DNA from: Arabidopsis thaliana
Taxonomy: Eukaryota > Streptophyta > Magnoliopsida > Brassicales > Brassicaceae
Length of the DNA: 64,000 nt
Assembly (NCBI RefSeq): GCF_000001735.4
Contig: NC_003075.7
Coordinates: forward strand, 10,789,001 to 10,853,000
Reading direction: 5' to 3'
Shown here: piece by piece, positions 6,825 to 57,085 of the stretch
Numbering within the stretch: the stretch's first letter is position 1
Layout: each line of letters starts with the position of its first letter
Notes under the pieces: model-generated
Told to the model about the DNA's origin: nothing
Databases searched by the model: none
Seen by the model: the letters and a program-made list of their open reading frames with translations, nothing else
Program-made: the position numbers and the translations under genes

Positions 6825-6868
6825 TCAGCTCAGAATCAATCGAAATGTCTTCCGGATGACAACCAAAC

Positions 6869-7687
6869 TCAGAACAGCAACGAGCCACTGAAGGATACTG
6901 AAGACATCCAATCTGTGAAAACAAAAGGGATAATGAAATAGCAGAGCAAAGCAGCAATAGCAACATAAAGCAACTCTTTTCCAAACCCCTCTTGAGCATT
7001 CGGTTGTTTTGGCATGAACATGTCTAAAGGGCTAGGTAGTTTTTCATCTTGCACACGTCTCGGAAGTTTCTTGCCCTGTAGACGTCTCTTAATAGCCCTT
7101 ACAATCTCCTCCACAAGAGAAGTATCATTGCTGCTATGCAAATCATGAAAAAAAAACTAAAACAGTCAAAACCAAAACTCTTTCCAATCTTCTTCTATAG
7201 TCACGTAAATAAAATAAAATTATTACCTGTAATCTGCTGAGGTGAAACCAGTATCTGTGCAGATAAAATTCACATTTCTCATCCAATGCTCGGCAAATGG
7301 ATGATCCCTGAAGCCCTGAATCGTCAACGTTTCCAAAAAACTCTCTCCAAATCTACCATTGAACATATTCACGTCGTCTTCTGAAACCCTATAGAAGACA
7401 GGGATCAACACGAGTTTTCCTTCCCTACGTCGATCATAGATCCTCACCGCTTCGTGCAAACACAACTCTGACGCTGTGTACCGGTCAGAGAAAATCACTA
7501 ATGCGACATTTGAGTTATCGATCGCTCTGAAAATGTGTTCCATGCCTCTTCCTCTTCGCTCGTCACTATCTATGAAAACGTTAAACCCTTCGTCATTTAA
7601 GGCTCTTTCCACATGCCTAATGAATCCGTCGCTCTGATCGCTTTCACCATGATTGATAAACACTAGAGGACGTGCTTGTATCGCCAT
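6869..7687 (-). CDS. TIR-only protein with C-terminal membrane segment (TIR copy 1, tail shifted)
   Basis: Exons 7687-7227 and 7130-6869 encode 240 residues. Exon 1 is a TIR domain: FIRHVERALNDEGFNVFIDS, then VALVIFSDRYTASELCLHEA, then PVFYRVSEDDV. The glutamate of CLHE sits where TIR NADases have their catalytic residue, but the usual W before CL is L, and the SFRG start motif is replaced by INHGES. No NB-ARC or LRR follows. Exon 2 gives a basic linker and one hydrophobic segment, AIAALLCYFIIPFVF. The paralogues at 8.4 and 10.9 kb continue into a second hydrophobic stretch; here it is present in the DNA (6890-6825) but in another frame, so this copy ends early. Role: TIRs cleave NAD+ in immune signalling; activity here is not established. 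Likely AT4G19910. Confidence 0.82.
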
Positions 7688-8391
7688 TGGATTAGGGTCT
7701 TATTGTTTTCGAAACAATCTATTTGTCAAACTACTCTCTTTTTAAGAAACTACACCAGTTTTCAAAATTTCCAACTAGATCAATCTTTCATAATTAAGAC
7801 AACGTTTTTCCATGTACATTTTTTCTTCTAAAACTAACGTTTCAGTTTTCCAAATAAAAATCAAACAAAGTCTAAAAATCGATCATAATTTAGTTAAATA
7901 AACGTTTGCTACAAATTGCCAAATGAAAAATCATTAATAGTTTAATACACATATTTAACTAGGCTTGGGCTTAATTGTGTCCCTTAAAATCTGCTTGGGC
8001 TTGTGTCCCTCAAAACTTACGGGCTCTGTCTACCTCCACTCCCAAGTATTTGCTAAAAACCTTTTATACTTCTTACGGTACGCTAACCTTAATATTCACT
8101 CTCCTTCGTAATATTCGCACATTCCTATGAATGGAACGTTCTCCTCAAGACTGTCGTGCAAGTGAAACATTCAAAAGGCAGTTTTTTGTGATCCTAAGCA
8201 AATTGTTGAAAACATCCTTAACAGTTACACATATTCCAACTCACACAGGCATGAAAAGCGGGTAATGCATATATATGGGTAAATTATGCACATTTTCTTT
8301 ATATATAAATATTAACAAACACACAAAACACACACATGTACAAGTACAAACACGAGCCTGATCATGTCAAAGCACGCGATCACTCACACGG
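7688..8391. other. intergenic between TIR copies 1 and 2
   Basis: Promoter side of TIR copy 1 and 3' side of copy 2. I see no gene, RNA or repeat with clear boundaries. Confidence 0.45.
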
Positions 8392-9360
8392 TCAGGCGAA
8401 CTTCCTGCGGATTAGAACCAAAAACAAAACACCTACAAACCATTGAGGAGTCTTGTAGAAACTCGTGTCATTGAATATTAAAGGTGCTATGAAATTACAG
8501 AGACCAGCCAAAACAAGAGCGAAGAAAATCTCTGTTTCAATGGGCAATTCCTTCTCTTTAGTGGGAACGTATGGTAGCTGTCTCTTAACGTCCCGAACAA
8601 TCGCATCCACAAGATAGCTATCTATTCTGCCAAATCGATAAGAACAGTATTGATATAGTATCAACCTAAAAATTTCTAACTAAAAACCATAAGTTAAATT
8701 TTAATATGTACTCTCAACTGATATTACATTATAAAAAAAAAACCTTAACTTGAGACAGAACACAAAATACCTGTGGACTTCTGAGGTGAAGCCGGTCTTG
8801 GACGAAATAGATTTCACAGAGTTCACCCAACGTTCGGCCATAGGTTCCTCCTTAGGAGACTGTCTCTGCACCGTTTCTATAAAACAACTTCCAAATTTAC
8901 CTTTGAAATTTTTCACGTCGTCTGTATTGACCCTGTAGAAGACAGGGATCACTGTTAGTTTCCCTTCCTTCACGCAATCATCAATCTTCACGAGCTCGTT
9001 TAAGCACCAGTCTGACTCCGAGAACCGGTCAGAGAAGATCACGAGTGCCATCTTTGAGTTTTCGATTCTCTTGAAGAGGTTTTGAAGGTCTCTCCCTTTC
9101 ATCTCGTTGCTATCAATGAAAACGTTGACCCCTGCAATTCTCAAGGCTTTCACTACATGACTCACGAAGCCGTGGCGCAGCTCCTTTCCTCGGAAACTAA
9201 CAAACACCTGGGGTCGTGGTCGGGGTGGAAGACTTTGCGGTGGCTGAAGAGGGCGAGCATAAGGAAGAGGAGGTCGTGGTCGGGTTAGGAGCACGGGAGG
9301 AGTAAGAGGTCGTGGTCGGGATTCAGGAATGGGAGGAGGAGGAGGACTAGGAGGGTCCAT
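8392..9360 (-). CDS. TIR protein with proline/arginine-rich N-terminus and C-terminal membrane hairpin (TIR copy 2)
   Basis: Exons 9360-8771 and 8626-8392 encode 274 residues. ATG at 9360 is the first in frame. Residues 1-50 are rich in P and R (MDPPSPPPPPIPESRPRP, with RPRP recurring). The TIR domain begins PQVFVSFRGKELRHGF, and SDWCLNELVKI retains the W and the catalytic-position glutamate, making this the most canonical of the three copies. PVFYRVNTDDV and GKFGSCF follow. Exon 2 carries FFALVLAGLCNFIAPLIF, then PQWFVGVLFLVLIRRKF, together resembling a membrane hairpin with a basic end. Same strand, intron phase and exon content as copies 1 and 3, so a tandem duplicate. Likely AT4G19920. 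Probable immune TIR; membrane anchoring is inferred. Confidence 0.87.
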
Positions 9361-10317
9361 TGGTCGTTGCCTGGTTGGTTTATCAGCCAAAACCAACAAA
9401 GAAAGGATTTGTGAAGAACACTTGGGAACTTCCTAGTTCTTATTATATGGAAAACGTAAGACTTTCTTTTCTTTATTAATTCATATTCCTGGAGAGCAAG
9501 ACGGTAACTTCGATGCAGTTCCGATCCAGTACTCTTTTTTCGGATAAAGTATTAAGCTTATTTTTTATACCATGGGTTCGTTCGTGATGGCTTAATACGA
9601 TACAATAACTAGCTACCTAATTTCAACTAATCTCTTTTATAATATTGTGCTAGTCAATAAAATTAAGCTGATTAATTTCCTTTAGCCATGTAATTAACAC
9701 TTCATCTAAATGGCTTTCCCTATAAGAATTTTGATTCCAATAAATCGTGTAGTATGGTTTGGAATATGAGTCGGATCTTGTCGCGTTACACCGAGTTTTT
9801 TTTTTTTTTTTTGGGAAAAGTTTACCCAAAAATCATGTTATGCCAGCAAAGAAACCATGTAATAAAACTCATAACCAAATATAGTTTTATGTCAAAATTT
9901 AAATATCGTTATCGATATAATTGTTGTTACTACCAAACCATAAGAAAACCAATCCTTTGGAACAACCCACTGGAGTCTATAGCCGCCAAAGTCTTTCTTT
10001 AGTATATCTCCATCAGAAAAACGCCATTGTAGTCAGCATGTCACCCACTCACCCTACTATCATGGATCAGTTCAATAATGCTTTCGCAAAGCAAATCACC
10101 ATTTAATTTTGGGATCAATTTTTCTTATTATAGTTCATTTAATCTGTTTATATAACCATCACTTAACTCTCTATTTCTAAATATTCGGAGCAGAACAGAA
10201 TGGATCAAATCATATGACTATTTTGCTTACACCTAGTTTCAGCACTATACATATACATGCTCATACTAGAAGATGGTTAAAATTTATAATCAAGCGTCAA
10301 TAACCTATGCTTTAATA
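9361..10317. other. intergenic upstream of TIR copy 2
   Basis: Promoter region of TIR copy 2 followed by AT-rich DNA with a poly-T run near 9800. Open frames on the plus strand here lack family features. Confidence 0.45.
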
Positions 10318-10579
10318 CTCCCTCTGTTCTTTTTTAATTGATCTTCTAGAAAAAAATATTGTTTCTAAAGATTAATTTTGATTTTTGAGATTTTCAATAC
10401 ATTATTTATTAGTTATTATTCATGAATTTTAAACTTCAAGACAAATAATTAAATATTATTGGTTTCTAATTATAGAAAAATGTAAATCACAAACATTAAT
10501 ACATTTATAATCAGTTTTAATATGTTTTCTTAATTTGGGTGTTTTTTCTAAAATATCAATTAAAAAGGAATAGAAGGAG
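10318..10579. mobile_element. Stowaway-type MITE (Tc1/mariner superfamily)
   Basis: 262 bp. The left end reads CTCCCTCTGTTCTTTTTTAA and the right end, reverse-complemented, CTCCTTCTATTCCTTTTTAA. The CTCCCT start is the Stowaway hallmark. TA lies on both sides (10316-10317 and 10580-10581), matching the TA target of mariner elements. Interior AT-rich and non-coding. Confidence 0.9.
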
Positions 10580-10874
10580 TATAGTTCTAAAAAATTACTA
10601 ATGAGTTCAATACGGATAGAAGGTAAAGGTGCAAATGGTTGCACTTTTGGAGAGAAAAATGGATGAATAATTGATTTACCTCAAATTTTACCATTTAGAT
10701 TGAAAGTATAATATCTATTAATCATTTCTTTCAACCTTAATGAGATGAACAAAGAAAAAAACATAGATATATACATACAACATAAAAGCATAAAAAGCCA
10801 AGAGCTCATCGATCATTTGCAAAATATGGCGTACGTTGAGAGTCACGTGTCATATGTTCCACTGTTATTACCCA

Positions 10875-11726
10875 TCACCTCTGAATAGATCGGAGACTAT
10901 GTCGGACAACAAACAACAACATAACAGCTAGATACCAACGTGGGCTAATGAAGAAACCCAAATCCGGGAACACAGAAATAGGGATAAAGTAAAAACACAA
11001 AGCCGCAACAACCGAAGCAGAAAGAAGCTCTGCCGAAACTTCTTCTCCAATCGTTTGTTTTGCCGATATATAAGGTATTTTTTTCTTAATACCCTGAATG
11101 ATCGCCTCCACGAGATCACTATCGTTGCTGCCAATGAAAATTAGAGCTAGTTAGGAATATTCCACATTGGAAGTGAGATGGTATCTTGACTGCATTAATT
11201 AGTTTTGAGTTGGAATACTTTTATTTTACCTATAGTATCCTGACGTGAAGCTAGGCTTTCTAGCAATAGACCTTAGACATCCAACGATGTGATGGGTCAA
11301 CTGATGATTCTGTCTCCCTTGTGTCCTCACCATTTCATCAAAACATTTACCAAATCGTCCCTCCAAATTGTTAACTTCTTCGATGTTCACTTTGTAGAAG
11401 ATGGGGATCACCATGAGTTTCCCTTCGGCCACGCGCTCATGGATCGTCGTCAGCTCATTCAAGCACTGTTGTGACTCTGCGTATTGGTCAGAGAAGATCA
11501 CGAGAGCGAGTTTCGAGTTGTGGATCCTCCTGACGAAAAGGTGGTCATCATGATGATGAGGGCCTCTCCTTTCCCATTGATCATGATCGTTATCTACGAA
11601 AACGTTGACCCGTGCGTCTTTTAAGGCCTTCACGACATGGCTGACAAAGCCTTTTCGCAGGTCGTTCCCTTGAAAACTGATATATATCTGAGGGCGTGGT
11701 CGTCGTCGGAAAGCTGGCATCGTCAT
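10875..11726 (-). CDS. TIR-only protein with C-terminal membrane hairpin and His/Asp insert (TIR copy 3)
   Basis: Exons 11726-11230 and 11127-10875 encode 249 residues. ATG at 11726 is the first in frame; a second ATG two codons on is possible. TIR landmarks: PQIYISFQGNDLRKGF (Q for R in SFRG), LALVIFSDQYAES, CLNELTTI with the catalytic-position E but Q in place of W, and PIFYKVNIEEV. Between strand B and the next helix there is an insert containing DNDHDQWERRGPHHHDDH, absent from copies 1 and 2. Exon 2 gives LSASVVAALCFYFIPISVF, then PRWYLAVMLLFVVRHSL, a hydrophobic hairpin like that of copy 2. Phase-2 intron as in the other copies. Likely AT4G19925. NAD+ hydrolysis is possible from the retained E but untested. 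Confidence 0.85.
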
Positions 11727-20464: not shown

Positions 20465-20976
20465 AAACCCTTTTTGAAATACTAAATTTTTAAGTCCACT
20501 ACTACAAAAATTAAAACTCATTCCTTTTATATGTAGTCTCGATTCATATTTTCAAAAAATTTAAACAATTGAAACAAATAGTATCTGTATAAATTAATAA
20601 AATATTATGATCCAACAGTAATAATTTATAGAATTTTTACGGTGTAGTGTTAAAAAAAAGTTTTACTGTATATACCACTTCTTATATCAATCTAGGAATG
20701 AATAAATATTATTATCCTGAGTTATTTATTCTTGCCATCATATATATATATATATAATATTTTTTTCTGATCAACTTATTAATCTTGTTCTCTAATTTGT
20801 ATTAAGTAATAAACTAATTATTTCCTAATATAGAATTGGTCTCTATCCCAATAAAGAAAATGAAGTCACCTTCTTCTTCCTCTTTTCTCCTGTGTTGATG
20901 AAAAAGCTTCAAGATTCAATCAAATCATCAAAAAAAAAAACTATAACTTCTATTGATCTTGATATCTAAATCCGCC

Positions 20977-21942
20977 ATGGATCTTGCCCCAGAGGAGCTT
21001 CAATTTCTCAACAAAAGAGGAATTCTACGTGAATCAACATCAATCCCACAATATTCTCTAAAAACCTTTTACCTCATAACCCTAACCCTAATTTTCCCTC
21101 TCTCCTTCGCAATCCTAGCCCATTCTCTCTTCACACAACCAATCTTAGCTCAGATCGATACATACCCACAAGCCGATCAATCTCAACTCCAACATGAATG
21201 GACCGTCCTCCTCGTTTTCCAATTCTGCTACATCATCTTCCTCTTCGCCTTCTCTCTTCTCTCCACAGCCGCCGTTGTCTTCACCGTCGCTTCTCTTTAC
21301 ACCGGAAAGCCTGTTTCTTTCTCCTCCACAATGTCAGCGATACCTCTCGTCCTCAAAAGATTGTTCATAACATTCCTCTGGGTCTCTCTTTTGATGCTTG
21401 CGTACAACACCGTGTTCTTGATCTTCTTGGTCACGTTAATCGTAGCTGTTGATTTACAGAACGTGGTTTTAGCTGTGTTTTCGTTGGTAGTGATCTTTGT
21501 TCTGTTTCTTGTAGTTCATGTTTATATGACAGCTTTGTGGCATTTAGCTAGTGTAGTCTCTGTTCTTGAACCGATTTACGGTTTGGCTGCGATGAAGAAG
21601 AGTTATGAGTTGCTTAAAGGGAAGACTCTTATGGCTTGTTCGATGGTTTTCATCTATCTTGTTCATTGTGGATTCATTGCTGGAGTTTTTGGAGCAGTGG
21701 TGGTTCGTGGTGGTGATGATTACGGAATTTTCGCTAGAATCGTCGCTGGTGGATTCTTGGTTGGTGTTCTTGTGATAGTGAATCTAATTGGACTGCTTGT
21801 GCAGAGTGTGTTTTACTATGTTTGCAAGAGTTTTCATCATCAGGAGATTGATAAATCCGCTTTGCACGATCATCTCGGTGGGTATCTCGGTGAATATGTG
21901 CCTCTTAAGAGCAACATTCAAATGGAGAACTTTGAAGTTTGA
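20977..21942 (+). CDS. multi-pass membrane protein of unknown function (plant family)
   Basis: Single exon of 321 residues, ATG at 20977; codons upstream in frame contain no better plant start. After a soluble start (MDLAPEELQFLNKRGILRES) there are about six hydrophobic spans, near residues 27-48, 73-105, 120-150, 155-188, 215-238 and 250-275. The C-terminus is soluble (HDHLGGYLGEYVPLK). The LEPIYGLAAMKKSYELLKGK segment between spans 4 and 5 is a loop typical of this plant family, which databases label as unknown or, for a relative, as a poly(A)-binding-protein-binding protein. No transport or enzyme motif is visible. Likely AT4G19950. Confidence 0.88.
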   Translation: MDLAPEELQFLNKRGILRESTSIPQYSLKTFYLITLTLIFPLSFAILAHSLFTQPILAQIDTYPQADQSQLQHEWTVLLVFQFCYIIFLFAFSLLSTAAVVFTVASLYTGKPVSFSSTMSAIPLVLKRLFITFLWVSLLMLAYNTVFLIFLVTLIVAVDLQNVVLAVFSLVVIFVLFLVVHVYMTALWHLASVVSVLEPIYGLAAMKKSYELLKGKTLMACSMVFIYLVHCGFIAGVFGAVVVRGGDDYGIFARIVAGGFLVGVLVIVNLIGLLVQSVFYYVCKSFHHQEIDKSALHDHLGGYLGEYVPLKSNIQMENFEV

Positions 21943-53127: not shown

Positions 53128-54989
53128 ATGAGTTTGATTTCCAAATCCTTGGCAAGAATTGAATGTTCGCCATTTTTTTATCCAAGAGCTTCAGAAATCA
53201 CTACCGGAAAACGGATAACCTCTCCGCAAATCCGTTTATACACTGCGGCGGCCGTCGGCGGGAAAACTGGAAATGGAGAAAGGAAACAAAGAGCCAAAGC
53301 ACCGGCGAAAACTCCGGAGGCAGTGACACCTGTGAAACCGCTGGAGATTGCGTCAGTCACGGCGACGACGGAGAATGAATTGCCTCGGCCTAATGAGATA
53401 GCTTACGAGAGTGAAGTAGCGAATTGGGTTAATCTGATTGGATTTGTTGATCAACCAGTTCAATTCGAAGCTTCTTCTGATGGCAAATTCTGGGCTGGTA
53501 CTGTTATTTCCCAGAGGTCTGCTTCAGATTCCTCTGGTTTCTGGTACTCTCTCTAATCTATACTCAAAGATGAGATTTTTATTTGTAACTTTGTTTGTGA
53601 TTCATATTTGAAAAGGTTTTGGATTTTGTTTTGTCAGGATTCCGATAATATTTGAAGGCGATTTAGCTAAAACCGCAGCTCGATATGTAAGCAAAGACGA
53701 TCAAATTCATGTGTCTGGGAAGCTGTTTATAGATTCTCCTCCTCCAAATATGACTTATGCACAAGCCAATGTTCAGGTGTGAGCTTTAAATAGTATTTGA
53801 TCAGTTTTATGATACTTGTGAGAAGAGTACTATGTTGATTTGATTATCCCTCGAGTATGTATGAAAAGTTCCAGAGAACCTTTGTAACTTTAGGTGGTTG
53901 CTACTTGCTTTACAACAGGTATTGGTCCAGAATCTTAACTTTATACAGCCTATGTCCCCGTCTCCGTCGCCATTTATGGTTATGTCATCATCTGAAAAGG
54001 AAGAAAGTGGTATCAAGAAGCAGCCTGGTATGTCTCATGTAACATTTCCAATGAACAATTTTCAATTGGCGCTTGTGTTAGGTCTGAGAAAGGCTCTTAG
54101 GGAGCTACTTTTTAATCTCTTGTGATGTATTTAATGAAAAATGTGTTTTCTTGTGAAATCTTTCTGGCATACATTTGTTTTCAATGCTCTGATTAATGGT
54201 TTGTTAAATGAGTCTCTAGCTAGAGCTAAGCAGGATATAGTCATTGATGAAGCTTCAGATTCTTGGAATCACCTCATTGAAAATCCTAAAGAATGGTGGG
54301 ATCACCGGGAAAATAAAGTCAATGGATTGGTAAATGCCCCATGTGCTTAACTATTCATCCTTATCTCACTCGCAATCTTTTGATATGGTGTCTGCTAAAT
54401 CTCTCTACTAGTTTTCTGACTTCTTGGTTTTTCTCCTACATAGGTAAAACCTAGGCATCCTGATTTCAAAAGCAAGGACAGTAGTTTTTCGCTGTGGCTC
54501 AATAAGGCTCCTAATTGGGTTTTGCCAAAACTCGAAGGACTCGAGTTCGATGTTCTAGTCCCTAAAGCCAGAGTTGTAAAACAACTTAAAGGTAAAGTTC
54601 CCAGTCATTTCCATGTTCCTATGCAACTATACAAAGAAAGTTGTTTACAGTTATGTGGCACTTGTTCAAGTATGTTTGTATAAACTGAAATCTGGGCTGA
54701 TATGTGTAGGAGAAGAATCATGGAAGGACTTGGTTCAGAACCCAGATAAATGGTGGGACAATAGAATCGACAAGGTAGGATACCAATATCTTTTGCTCGG
54801 TTTTTCATCAATCTTTCCAAGAAACTGACCTATTGTCCCAATATCGTTTTTGTTTTGAAGAGAAATGCAAAAGCCCCTGATTTCAAGCACAAGGAGACAG
54901 GTGAAGCACTGTGGCTAAACGAGTCTCCTACTTGGGTATTACCGAAACTGCCACCAGTCAAGAAGAAACAAGAAAGTATTGTCTTTTAG
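53128..54989 (+). CDS. OSB2: organellar single-stranded DNA-binding protein
   Basis: Seven coding exons: 53128-53543, 53638-53776, 53919-54027, 54220-54329, 54444-54591, 54710-54774 and 54861-54989, for 371 residues. The N-terminus (SLISKSLARIECSPFFYPRA) is basic and serine-rich, a transit peptide by appearance. The middle is an OB-fold SSB-like domain (NWVNLIGFVDQPVQFEASS to PNMTYAQANVQ). The C-terminus has two PDF motifs, each W-x-x-L-x-x-NP-x-x-WWD, then PDFK-x-K and LWLN-x-(A/S)P-x-WVLPKL, which bind single-stranded DNA in this plant family. OSB proteins restrain organelle genome recombination; this member (also PTAC9) is found with plastid transcriptionally active chromosome. Likely AT4G20010. 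Confidence 0.95.
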
Positions 54990-55359: not shown

Positions 55360-57085
55360 CTAGTACCTTCTTCCCTGTGGAAACTGAAACACAGGACCAT
55401 CTCAGTAACAAATATGGGGAAAATGGGGTACTTTAATGCCTGATGAGGATATCAAAAAAGAAAGATGCAAGATTCATTATTGATCGAGATCTTACTTGGT
55501 CAGACCCGGGCTGGCCTGCTGGATTATTGTTGTTCCAGTCTCGATTCCTCTGATCTGCCTGTGGGAATGTCTGATTCTGCTCTTGTCCTGGTCCAGAATA
55601 CCCCTGACCATAGCCAGGATTTCCAGCTCCAGGTGCAGGACCTAAGTTTCCAGCTCCAGATGCAGGACCAAAGTTTCCAGCTCCCTGTGGATTGTAATTC
55701 CTAGGTCCTCCTTGGTTGTAACCACCTTGTGGCCCTTGACTATAGTTCCCAGATCCACCTTGACCGTAACTGCTTTGTGTTCCTTGGTATGGAGGCACTG
55801 GAGATCCCTGGACTTGATTGTAACCTGCCTGATATGGAGGCACTGGAGATCCCTGGCCTTGATTGTAACCTGCCTGATATGGAGGTGGTGGAGATCTCGG
55901 GCCTTGGTTATAACCTCCTTGAAATGGTGGAGGCGCTTGAGTTCCCTGACCTTGTCCTGGAGTGGCATAGCCCTGTTGAGGACCATAGCTCCCTCCACCA
56001 CCTTGCATTGGTGGTTGCTGACCATACTGTGTGTTTCTTTGGAAGTTTTGGGGACCACCACTTCCTCCTCCTGAACGGTCAAATCTAGGACGAGGTCTTG
56101 CTCTGCCACTCTGAATCGGTGGTGGCCTGTGTGTTATCACTCCATTCTCGTATTTATCTCCTGAAAACAAGAAACATAATTTTGTTGATAGAGTCCCAAC
56201 AACAAATATCCAAAATAAGACCAGTTTGTAAAAAAAACCAGCTCACCTCCATACTCTTTGTTCTGGGGATCAATGTAGGAATCTGGCAAGATGAAAACCA
56301 CTCCGGGTAGATCTGTTTACATATACCAATAACAGAGTCAATATCTGGTGAAAAAAGTTGAATTCAAAAGAAAACAAACATAAATGATTCGAACTATATA
56401 CCCTTGAACTTTTCTGATTCTTGTTCAGTCATGATTGCTTGAAATCCTTGGTAAGTAGTTGTGCTACAAGCATACATCCTTTGCTTAGCCTCTTCCACGC
56501 TGACTCAACCATAAACACCAAAAATGAATCAATATAATCGTCTTAACCAATATCAATACCAGAAGAAGATACACAAAAATCAAAGCAGAGCTATATAACA
56601 GTGAATGGAACCCTAGCAATGGTAAAGTTCTCACATTTAAGTAACTTACTGAATGATTTTTGGACAATTTAGCCAAAAGCAACGAATCTAAGCAGTGACA
56701 AAAATTCATCTACTAACCTGATGCCAAGTCCTTGGGCGCAAGTTTCTTCATAAGCAGCGACCATTTCTTCTGGAGACTTAGGAGTTTCCTCTTTGGAGAA
56801 ATCCATAGTGATAAGCCAGTGATTATAATCACATCCTTCGAACAACACAGTGTCTTCCGTGATCTCATCACCTTCTTTGTAAAGCTTGTACTGCCTCGTT
56901 GAAAACAGTCTCGCCGGTGCTCGAGTAGCTACTTCCGTCGAACGCCCTATAACGGATCTCTTTAACACCGCCGCCGACACAGAAGGGAAATCAGACGCTG
57001 GTGTGATCGAAGAGCTAATTGATCGGTTAACATAGGAAGTCGCAGTGAGTAAAGCTCGTCGGAGACGGTGAGATATCATAGCCAT
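55360..57085 (-). CDS. MORF1: multiple organellar RNA editing factor (MORF/RIP family)
   Basis: Exons 57085-56718, 56499-56402, 56312-56247, 56160-55496 and 55383-55360 give 406 residues. A second isoform is likely, since reading through the last donor adds a different tail. The N-terminal 60 residues are basic, rich in S and R ([18 protein letters not shown]), a mitochondrial presequence. The MORF box runs from [16 protein letters not shown] through [14 protein letters not shown] to [13 protein letters not shown]. The C-terminus is a G/P/Q/N-rich low-complexity tail with [13 protein letters not shown] repeats. MORF proteins bind PPR proteins and each other to permit C-to-U editing in mitochondria. 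Likely AT4G20020. Not overlapped by real plus-strand genes. Confidence 0.95.
55788..55922 (-). repeat. three tandem 45-bp coding repeats in the MORF1 tail
   Basis: Units start at 55788, 55833 and 55878, each TATGGAGG... on the plus strand, encoding a 15-residue YNQxQGSPxPPYQAG-like unit on the minus strand. The third is more diverged; a fourth degenerate unit may follow. Confidence 0.9.

Follow-up and report, generated by a model that had tools for sequence, protein, structure and literature searches.

What anchors a small plant TIR protein whose gene encodes no NB-ARC or LRR and closes instead with a hydrophobic exon, and on which side of the membrane would its TIR domain lie? The question is raised by three tandem minus-strand genes, here called copies 1, 2, and 3, which lie within positions 6825-11726 of the 64,000-nucleotide stretch of Arabidopsis thaliana DNA that we analyzed (the window; NC_003075.7, positions 10,789,001 to 10,853,000) and whose models we rebuilt from the sequence. 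From the gene order, we take them to be AT4G19910, AT4G19920, and AT4G19925, respectively. These identifiers appear in the literature as TIR or disease-resistance genes (PMC4697310, PMC10970103, PMC3536592). The explanation that we favor, with moderate confidence, is that the three genes encode TIR-X proteins related to AtTIK (AT5G44920) that would be anchored by a C-terminal hairpin, with the TIR domain on the cytosolic face of the endoplasmic reticulum (ER) or nuclear envelope (NE).

All three copies share one layout, namely, a TIR exon, a phase-2 intron with GT..AG borders, and a second exon that carries a strong hydrophobic helix, and the rebuilt models confirm this arrangement, which an earlier sequence-only reading had proposed. 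The first exons of copies 1, 2, and 3 measure 461, 590, and 497 nt; each is 2 modulo 3, and the introns (93, 144, and 102 nt) are therefore in phase 2. Exon 2 opens with a charged helix, which is followed by a linker and then by hydrophobic segment 1. The exons and introns are as follows.

7227..7687, minus strand: copy 1 exon 1, TIR domain, with its ATG at 7687 and a phase-2 end (gene model, Pfam).
7134..7226, minus strand: copy 1 phase-2 intron, GT..AG, 93 nt (gene model).
6869..7133, minus strand: copy 1 exon 2, to the in-frame stop at 6869-6871 (gene model).
8771..9360, minus strand: copy 2 exon 1, a Pro/Arg-rich N terminus and then the TIR domain (gene model, Pfam).
8627..8770, minus strand: copy 2 phase-2 intron, 144 nt (gene model).
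8392..8626, minus strand: copy 2 exon 2, with charged helix, linker, putative hairpin, basic end RRKFA, and stop (gene model, AlphaFold2).
11230..11726, minus strand: copy 3 exon 1, TIR domain whose BB-loop region is enlarged (gene model, Pfam).
11128..11229, minus strand: copy 3 phase-2 intron, 102 nt (gene model).
10875..11127, minus strand: copy 3 exon 2, with charged helix, linker, putative hairpin, basic end RHSLRSIQR, and stop (gene model).

The start methionine of copy 2 is the sole methionine ahead of its TIR domain, and part of its Pro/Arg-rich N terminus is encoded by a 36-bp tandem repeat (2.3 copies; window positions 9262-9345).

The first exons of all three copies match TIR in Pfam, with E values of 1e-23 to 4e-32, and the three second exons match no Pfam family at E values up to 1. 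No NB-ARC place lies near 10.796-10.801 Mb among the at least 134 listed in the genome (122 of 213 candidates scored), and the proposal that NB-ARC and LRR are absent is upheld to that extent. Copies 1 to 3 are tandem TIR-X (TX) genes of A. thaliana. They resemble other members of the TIR-X class (e.g., TX14, AT2G32140) in having a TIR domain without NB-ARC or LRR; TX14, unlike the window copies, is described as soluble (PMC11943168). To place the copies within the genome (C4 and C5 denote chromosomes 4 and 5), we used 150 of its 151 TIR matches and 73 of the 134 NB-ARC places, the 61 omitted being mostly the top-scoring rows plus the lowest-scoring tail. Eighty-seven TIR matches, some of which nonetheless carry an NB-ARC, had none of those 73 places within 2.2 kb downstream, and a census of second exons covered 78 of the 87. 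By our own reading, a second exon that follows a phase-2 intron and encodes a helix plus a strong hydrophobic segment occurs in seven cases: the three window copies, three chromosome 5 genes discussed below (one of them, AT5G44900, added from separate gene models), and C5:18300611, which has one segment. The remaining hydrophobic frames look like intron or flanking sequence, and about 12 second exons, unlike those of the window copies, stop within about 55 residues without a strong hydrophobic segment. The TIR locus at C5:18300611-18301021 (minus strand) has no NB-ARC place nearby, and its exon 2 ends with a single hydrophobic segment, unlike the hairpin type.

The usual hydropathy limit for a membrane-spanning helix is 1.6. 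The best Kyte-Doolittle 19-residue means (KD19) of segment 1 in copies 1, 2, and 3 are 2.59, 2.45, and 2.17, so that hydropathy predicts the membrane helix expected in copies 2 and 3, and membrane attachment through segment 1 is well supported. In copies 2 and 3, segment 1 is followed in frame by a neutral loop of 10 residues (one Lys/Arg, one Asp/Glu), an 11-residue segment 2 that starts with W, and a basic C-terminal end (three Lys/Arg, no Asp/Glu); such an end would fit a cytosolic C terminus. In copy 3, segment 2 passes the limit when loop residues are included (19-residue mean, 1.84 from residue 222; 17-residue mean, 1.85) and drops to 1.40, under the limit, in windows starting at least 4 residues past segment 1. 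The second hydrophobic stretch that the sequence-only reading saw in all three genes is in frame in copies 2 and 3; the reading frame of copy 1 stops short of it. The shared two-part hairpin therefore belongs to two of the three proteins as read. The hydrophobic features are as follows.

6917..6973, minus strand: copy 1 hydrophobic segment 1, LLYVAIAALLCYFIIPFVF (KD19 of 2.59 at residue 208).
6825..6887, minus strand: copy 1 segment 2 remnant and basic tail, in another frame than segment 1 (frame reading, shuffle test).
8473..8529, minus strand: copy 2 hydrophobic segment 1, IFFALVLAGLCNFIAPLIF (KD19 of 2.45; AlphaFold2 helix 29-50 of exon 2).
8410..8442, minus strand: copy 2 short hydrophobic segment 2, WFVGVLFLVLI (hydropathy; AlphaFold2 helix 60-76 of exon 2).
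10968..11027, minus strand: copy 3 hydrophobic segment 1, LLSASVVAALCFYFIPISVF (KD19 of 2.17 at residue 200).
10905..10937, minus strand: copy 3 short hydrophobic segment 2, WYLAVMLLFVV (hydropathy, shuffle test).

For exon 2 of copy 2, AlphaFold2 (run with three sequences) predicted, at modest confidence, helices at residues 3-16, 29-50, and 60-76, with a mean pLDDT of 70.1 and a pTM of 0.39; a true two-helix hairpin is probable. The hairpin part was also compared between genes after removal of the first helix, against two sets of 1000 shuffles each, one of composition shuffles and one preserving the hydrophobic/polar pattern. All three window pairs score above 1000/1000 shuffles of either type; the score of copy 2 with AtTIK is reached by 0/1000 shuffles of either type, and that of copy 3 with AtTIK by 1/1000 in both. 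The idea that these are chance hydrophobic frames from AT-rich DNA was rejected by the class-preserving shuffles for the window pairs and for copies 2 and 3 versus AtTIK.

As judged by sequence comparison, copies 1 to 3 are relatives of AtTIK. Whole-genome searches, in which the top candidates from an initial screen were scored, retrieved copy 3 and a single further locus, C5:18139746-18139940 (41%, E 8e-6), with exon 2 of copy 2 (charged helix included) as query. This locus forms the final exon of a TIR gene ending in PPPS, and in the reverse search it retrieves copy 2 (E 1.2e-5). We identify the gene as AtTIK because of its PPPS end. AtTIK (“TIR-KASH”) has been described as a TIR domain followed by a C-terminal transmembrane segment and PPPS and is known only from a few Brassicaceae (PMC7746251). 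It shares with the window copies the TIR exon, the phase-2 intron, and a homologous last exon in which segment 1 and a loop lead to a segment 2 that begins P-x-W-F; it differs from them in its longer segment 2 (16 residues) and its end, KNNQNKAPPPS. Our tree of TIR domains holds 61 rows: of the 150 matches, 60 entered and 65 were left out, whereas stops eliminated 15 and insufficient length 10. AtTIK, eliminated because of a terminal stop, was restored by hand. In this tree the window trio forms one clade (support of 100/99) and is grouped with AtTIK, AT5G44910, and C5:18166301 at 94/84. With respect to the AtTIK family, the last exon is reciprocal for copy 2 only, and the TIR clade at 94/84 holds all three copies and AtTIK. 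The TIR most similar to that of copy 2 outside the window (57%) lies at C4:17104824-17105252; an NB-ARC place follows it (C4:17105525-17106193), and this TNL-type gene falls outside the window clade in the tree.

From gene order, we presume that the neighbors of AtTIK are AT5G44900 and AT5G44910, in each of which a phase-2 intron separates a TIR exon from a hydrophobic second exon. AT5G44900 is known as TIRP, a TIR-X protein with one predicted transmembrane segment that interacts with gamma-secretase (PMC11943168). TIRP is like the window copies in its TIR exon, phase-2 intron, and hydrophobic C terminus and is located in the other duplicate block; it is unlike them in that its C-terminal segments are not similar to theirs beyond chance and its TIR belongs to another, weakly supported branch. 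The duplicate blocks themselves are traced by other genes. Window gene 20974-21939 has its best relative outside itself at C5:18110691 (83%), near the chromosome 5 trio, and those of window genes 53128-53550 and 56669-57070 are at C5:18072642 and C5:18068115 (54% each); the order and strands of the three pairs make one inverted collinear block. A fourth gene tested (1147-2445) has no partner near the chromosome 5 trio. The window and chromosome 5 TIR clusters sit in inverted collinear duplicate blocks, which we read as products of the last crucifer whole-genome duplication. Between AT5G44900 and AT5G44910 there is, in addition, a near-perfect inverted repeat (C5:18136824-18137034) with arms of about 90 bp that are 97% alike, which as RNA gives -162.1 kcal/mol (z of -28). 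A genome search with its arm found only its own place, and there was no Rfam match at the gathering threshold; the repeat could be a young MIRNA or small interfering RNA locus beside the TIR genes.

Several observations weigh against a hairpin-anchored family related to AtTIK. Segment 2 is short, at 11 hydrophobic residues in both copies that have it in frame, and that of copy 2 is under the hydropathy limit (17-residue mean, 1.45; 19-residue mean, 1.02). The 33 residues ahead of segment 1 are slightly acidic (6 Lys/Arg and 7 Asp/Glu in copy 2; 4 and 6 in copy 3), and the charge rule is therefore not clear-cut. A Foldseek comparison of the hairpin model with the PDB gave no significant match (two matches, E about 9), and AlphaFold2 gave a poor model for the TIR exon (47.8; three sequences). 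In the genome searches, exon 2 of copy 3 matches copy 2 but not AtTIK, and exon 2 of copy 1 has no significant match besides itself. The likeness of copy 1 to AtTIK is not significant (65 and 112 of 1000 shuffles), and the second exons of AT5G44900 and AT5G44910 are no better than shuffles in 9/9 pairs with the others; chance was thus not rejected by the class-preserving shuffles for copy 1 versus AtTIK or for any pair with AT5G44900 or AT5G44910, and because those pairs are not significant, we do not claim a hairpin by descent for the whole chromosome 5 trio. In the tree, the branch at 94/84 lies under the level that the program trusts, and AT5G44900 is placed elsewhere with weak support (87/40). 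The literature yielded no localization or enzyme data for copies 1 to 3. Finally, the frame of copy 1 stops at 6869-6871, after TDWMSSVSFSGSLLF, and segment 2 is not in frame.

The W-x-x-x-V-like stretch of copy 1 is read in a different frame, with its end at 6825. This other-frame tail resembles copies 2 and 3 (0/1000 class-preserving shuffles reach either score) and AtTIK (8/1000), and by our own count the loop between the segments has 29 nt in copy 1 versus 30 nt in copies 2 and 3. The end of copy 1 segment 1 (window positions 6913-6940) is T-rich and leads into CACAG, resembling a splice acceptor. Candidate introns of 62, 74, and 107 nt that use acceptor 6913 would, going by the sequence alone, delete segment 1 and put segment 2 in frame. 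Several such GT..AG choices within copy 1 exon 2, these three among them, would swap one segment for the other, and Arabidopsis NLR transcripts have been reported to terminate prematurely (PMC8116057). It might be supposed, then, that exon 2 as we read it is not part of the usual translation product, with transcripts that stop in the intron or splice otherwise to give soluble or differently anchored TIRs. We regard this as highly improbable, given that exon 2 of copy 2 is recognizable in the other duplicate block, with nonsynonymous divergence (dN) below synonymous divergence (dS).

The comparison with AtTIK also bears on topology. AtTIK is published as having SUN1 to SUN4 as partners, a location at the NE/ER, and a defect in nuclear size (PMC7746247, PMC7746251, PMC8222917). 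Its last exon has two hydrophobic segments, to which we assigned lengths of 21 and 16 residues. With a cytosolic TIR domain and both segments in the membrane, PPPS is cytosolic; with the first segment as the sole crossing, PPPS lies in the lumen on a tail some 41 residues long. SUN binding needs a lumenal C terminus, and a hairpin would place it in the cytosol, a conflict that is testable. The window copies could likewise be single-pass, tail-anchored KASH-like proteins, with segment 1 alone crossing, a lumenal tail, and SUN bridges as claimed for AtTIK. The published account of AtTIK as TIR, C-terminal transmembrane segment, and PPPS with SUN1 to SUN4 speaks for such proteins; so do the facts that the C-terminal transmembrane segment expected of KASH proteins is present in all three copies (segment 1, KD19 of 2.17-2.59), that this segment by itself exceeds the hydropathy limit in 3/3 copies and segment 2 of copy 2 does not, and that copy 1, with its frame as it stands, would be single-pass. 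Against this, a KASH-type PPPX or VPT end is absent from copies 1 to 3, which end in SGSLLF, RRKFA, and RSIQR, respectively, and segment 2 is conserved and hydrophobic, which is unlikely in a free lumenal tail. The second segment and the basic end argue against a lumenal, SUN-binding C terminus of the window copies, and we consider the KASH-like alternative quite unlikely for them. For AtTIK itself, the family comparison raises the question of its layout and does not settle it. A tentative, rather doubtful extension would be that the hairpin is the ancestral anchor of a crucifer TIR family on both duplicate blocks and places TIR enzymes at the cytosolic side of the ER/NE. AtTIK, with its PPPS end, would in that case have a cytosolic C terminus and either be no true KASH protein or be one of recent origin.

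Whether the TIR domains could still work as enzymes was judged from their motifs. The closest solved TIR to that of copy 2, the only copy compared, is that of RPS4 (4c6r; E 1.6e-35), and the window copies differ from RPS4-type TNLs in lacking NB-ARC and LRR, with a membrane anchor in their place. TIR motif residues of known role include the catalytic glutamate of CLxEL and the W of W-C-x-x-E-L. The glutamate is present in all three copies and in 59/61 TIRs of the set; the W, found in 52/61, is W in copy 2, L in copy 1, and Q in copy 3. None of the 12 motif positions checked departs in copy 2. Four of 12 depart in copy 1 (W to L, the L after E to A, S to R, and the R of FRG to G) and two of 12 in copy 3 (W to Q and the R of FRG to Q, that R being present in only 30/61). 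The copy 3 TIR has an enlarged BB-loop region, and the tree branches of copies 1, 3, and 2 are 0.76, 0.62, and 0.097 long. Because its motif positions are intact and its branch is short, copy 2 looks enzymatically intact and is likely the active member; copies 1 and 3 have probably weakened, taken on a regulatory role, or begun to decay.

The departures and long branches of copies 1 and 3, the enlarged BB-loop region of copy 3, and the frame break between the segments of copy 1 would all suit decoys or decaying genes, that is, TIRs that are no longer enzymes and poison TIR assemblies or serve as effector baits, or near-pseudogenes. As a general account of the three genes we think this unlikely, in view of the catalytic glutamate kept throughout and the intact motifs of copy 2. 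Moreover, dN is below dS (NG86) in 6/6 exon 1 pairs and 6/6 exon 2 pairs among copies 1 to 3 and AtTIK, ratios that are rough because dS is 0.83-1.76, a caution that counts against our own explanation as well. At4g19925 (p of 0.063) and At4g19910 are also among the responding transcripts of two expression studies (PMC3536592, PMC4697310).

Under the explanation that we favor, anchored TIR-X proteins facing the cytosol, each protein would lack a signal peptide and be synthesized in the cytosol, and its C-terminal anchor would insert into the ER or NE from the cytosolic side as a hairpin, leaving both ends cytosolic. The TIR domain would thereby be held at the membrane face, where crowding may favor TIR-TIR assembly for NAD+-consuming activity. 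AtTIK is reported at the NE/ER (PMC7746247), and by analogy an ER/NE location is the best reading for the window copies. The sequence-only reading had suggested membrane-anchored TIR enzymes or decoys of a little-described architecture; the anchor survives as the best reading, and the claim of novelty holds only in part, since TIR-X proteins with a transmembrane segment, TIRP and AtTIK, are already published. A plant-wide survey also lists nine TIR-class proteins with predicted transmembrane segments (PMC3532234), and the combination of TIR and membrane anchor is not new in kind. The accessible literature on AT4G19910, AT4G19920, and AT4G19925, from a search outside which most subscription papers fall, describes no membrane anchor, and a hairpin is not described among the matches listed for TIR-X or TIR-only proteins with transmembrane, tail-anchored, or ER terms (titles and abstract starts, with few subscription papers). 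If our explanation is correct, small TIR proteins tethered to an internal membrane would give the plant a way to concentrate or confine TIR signaling, a means that soluble TIR-only proteins do not have.

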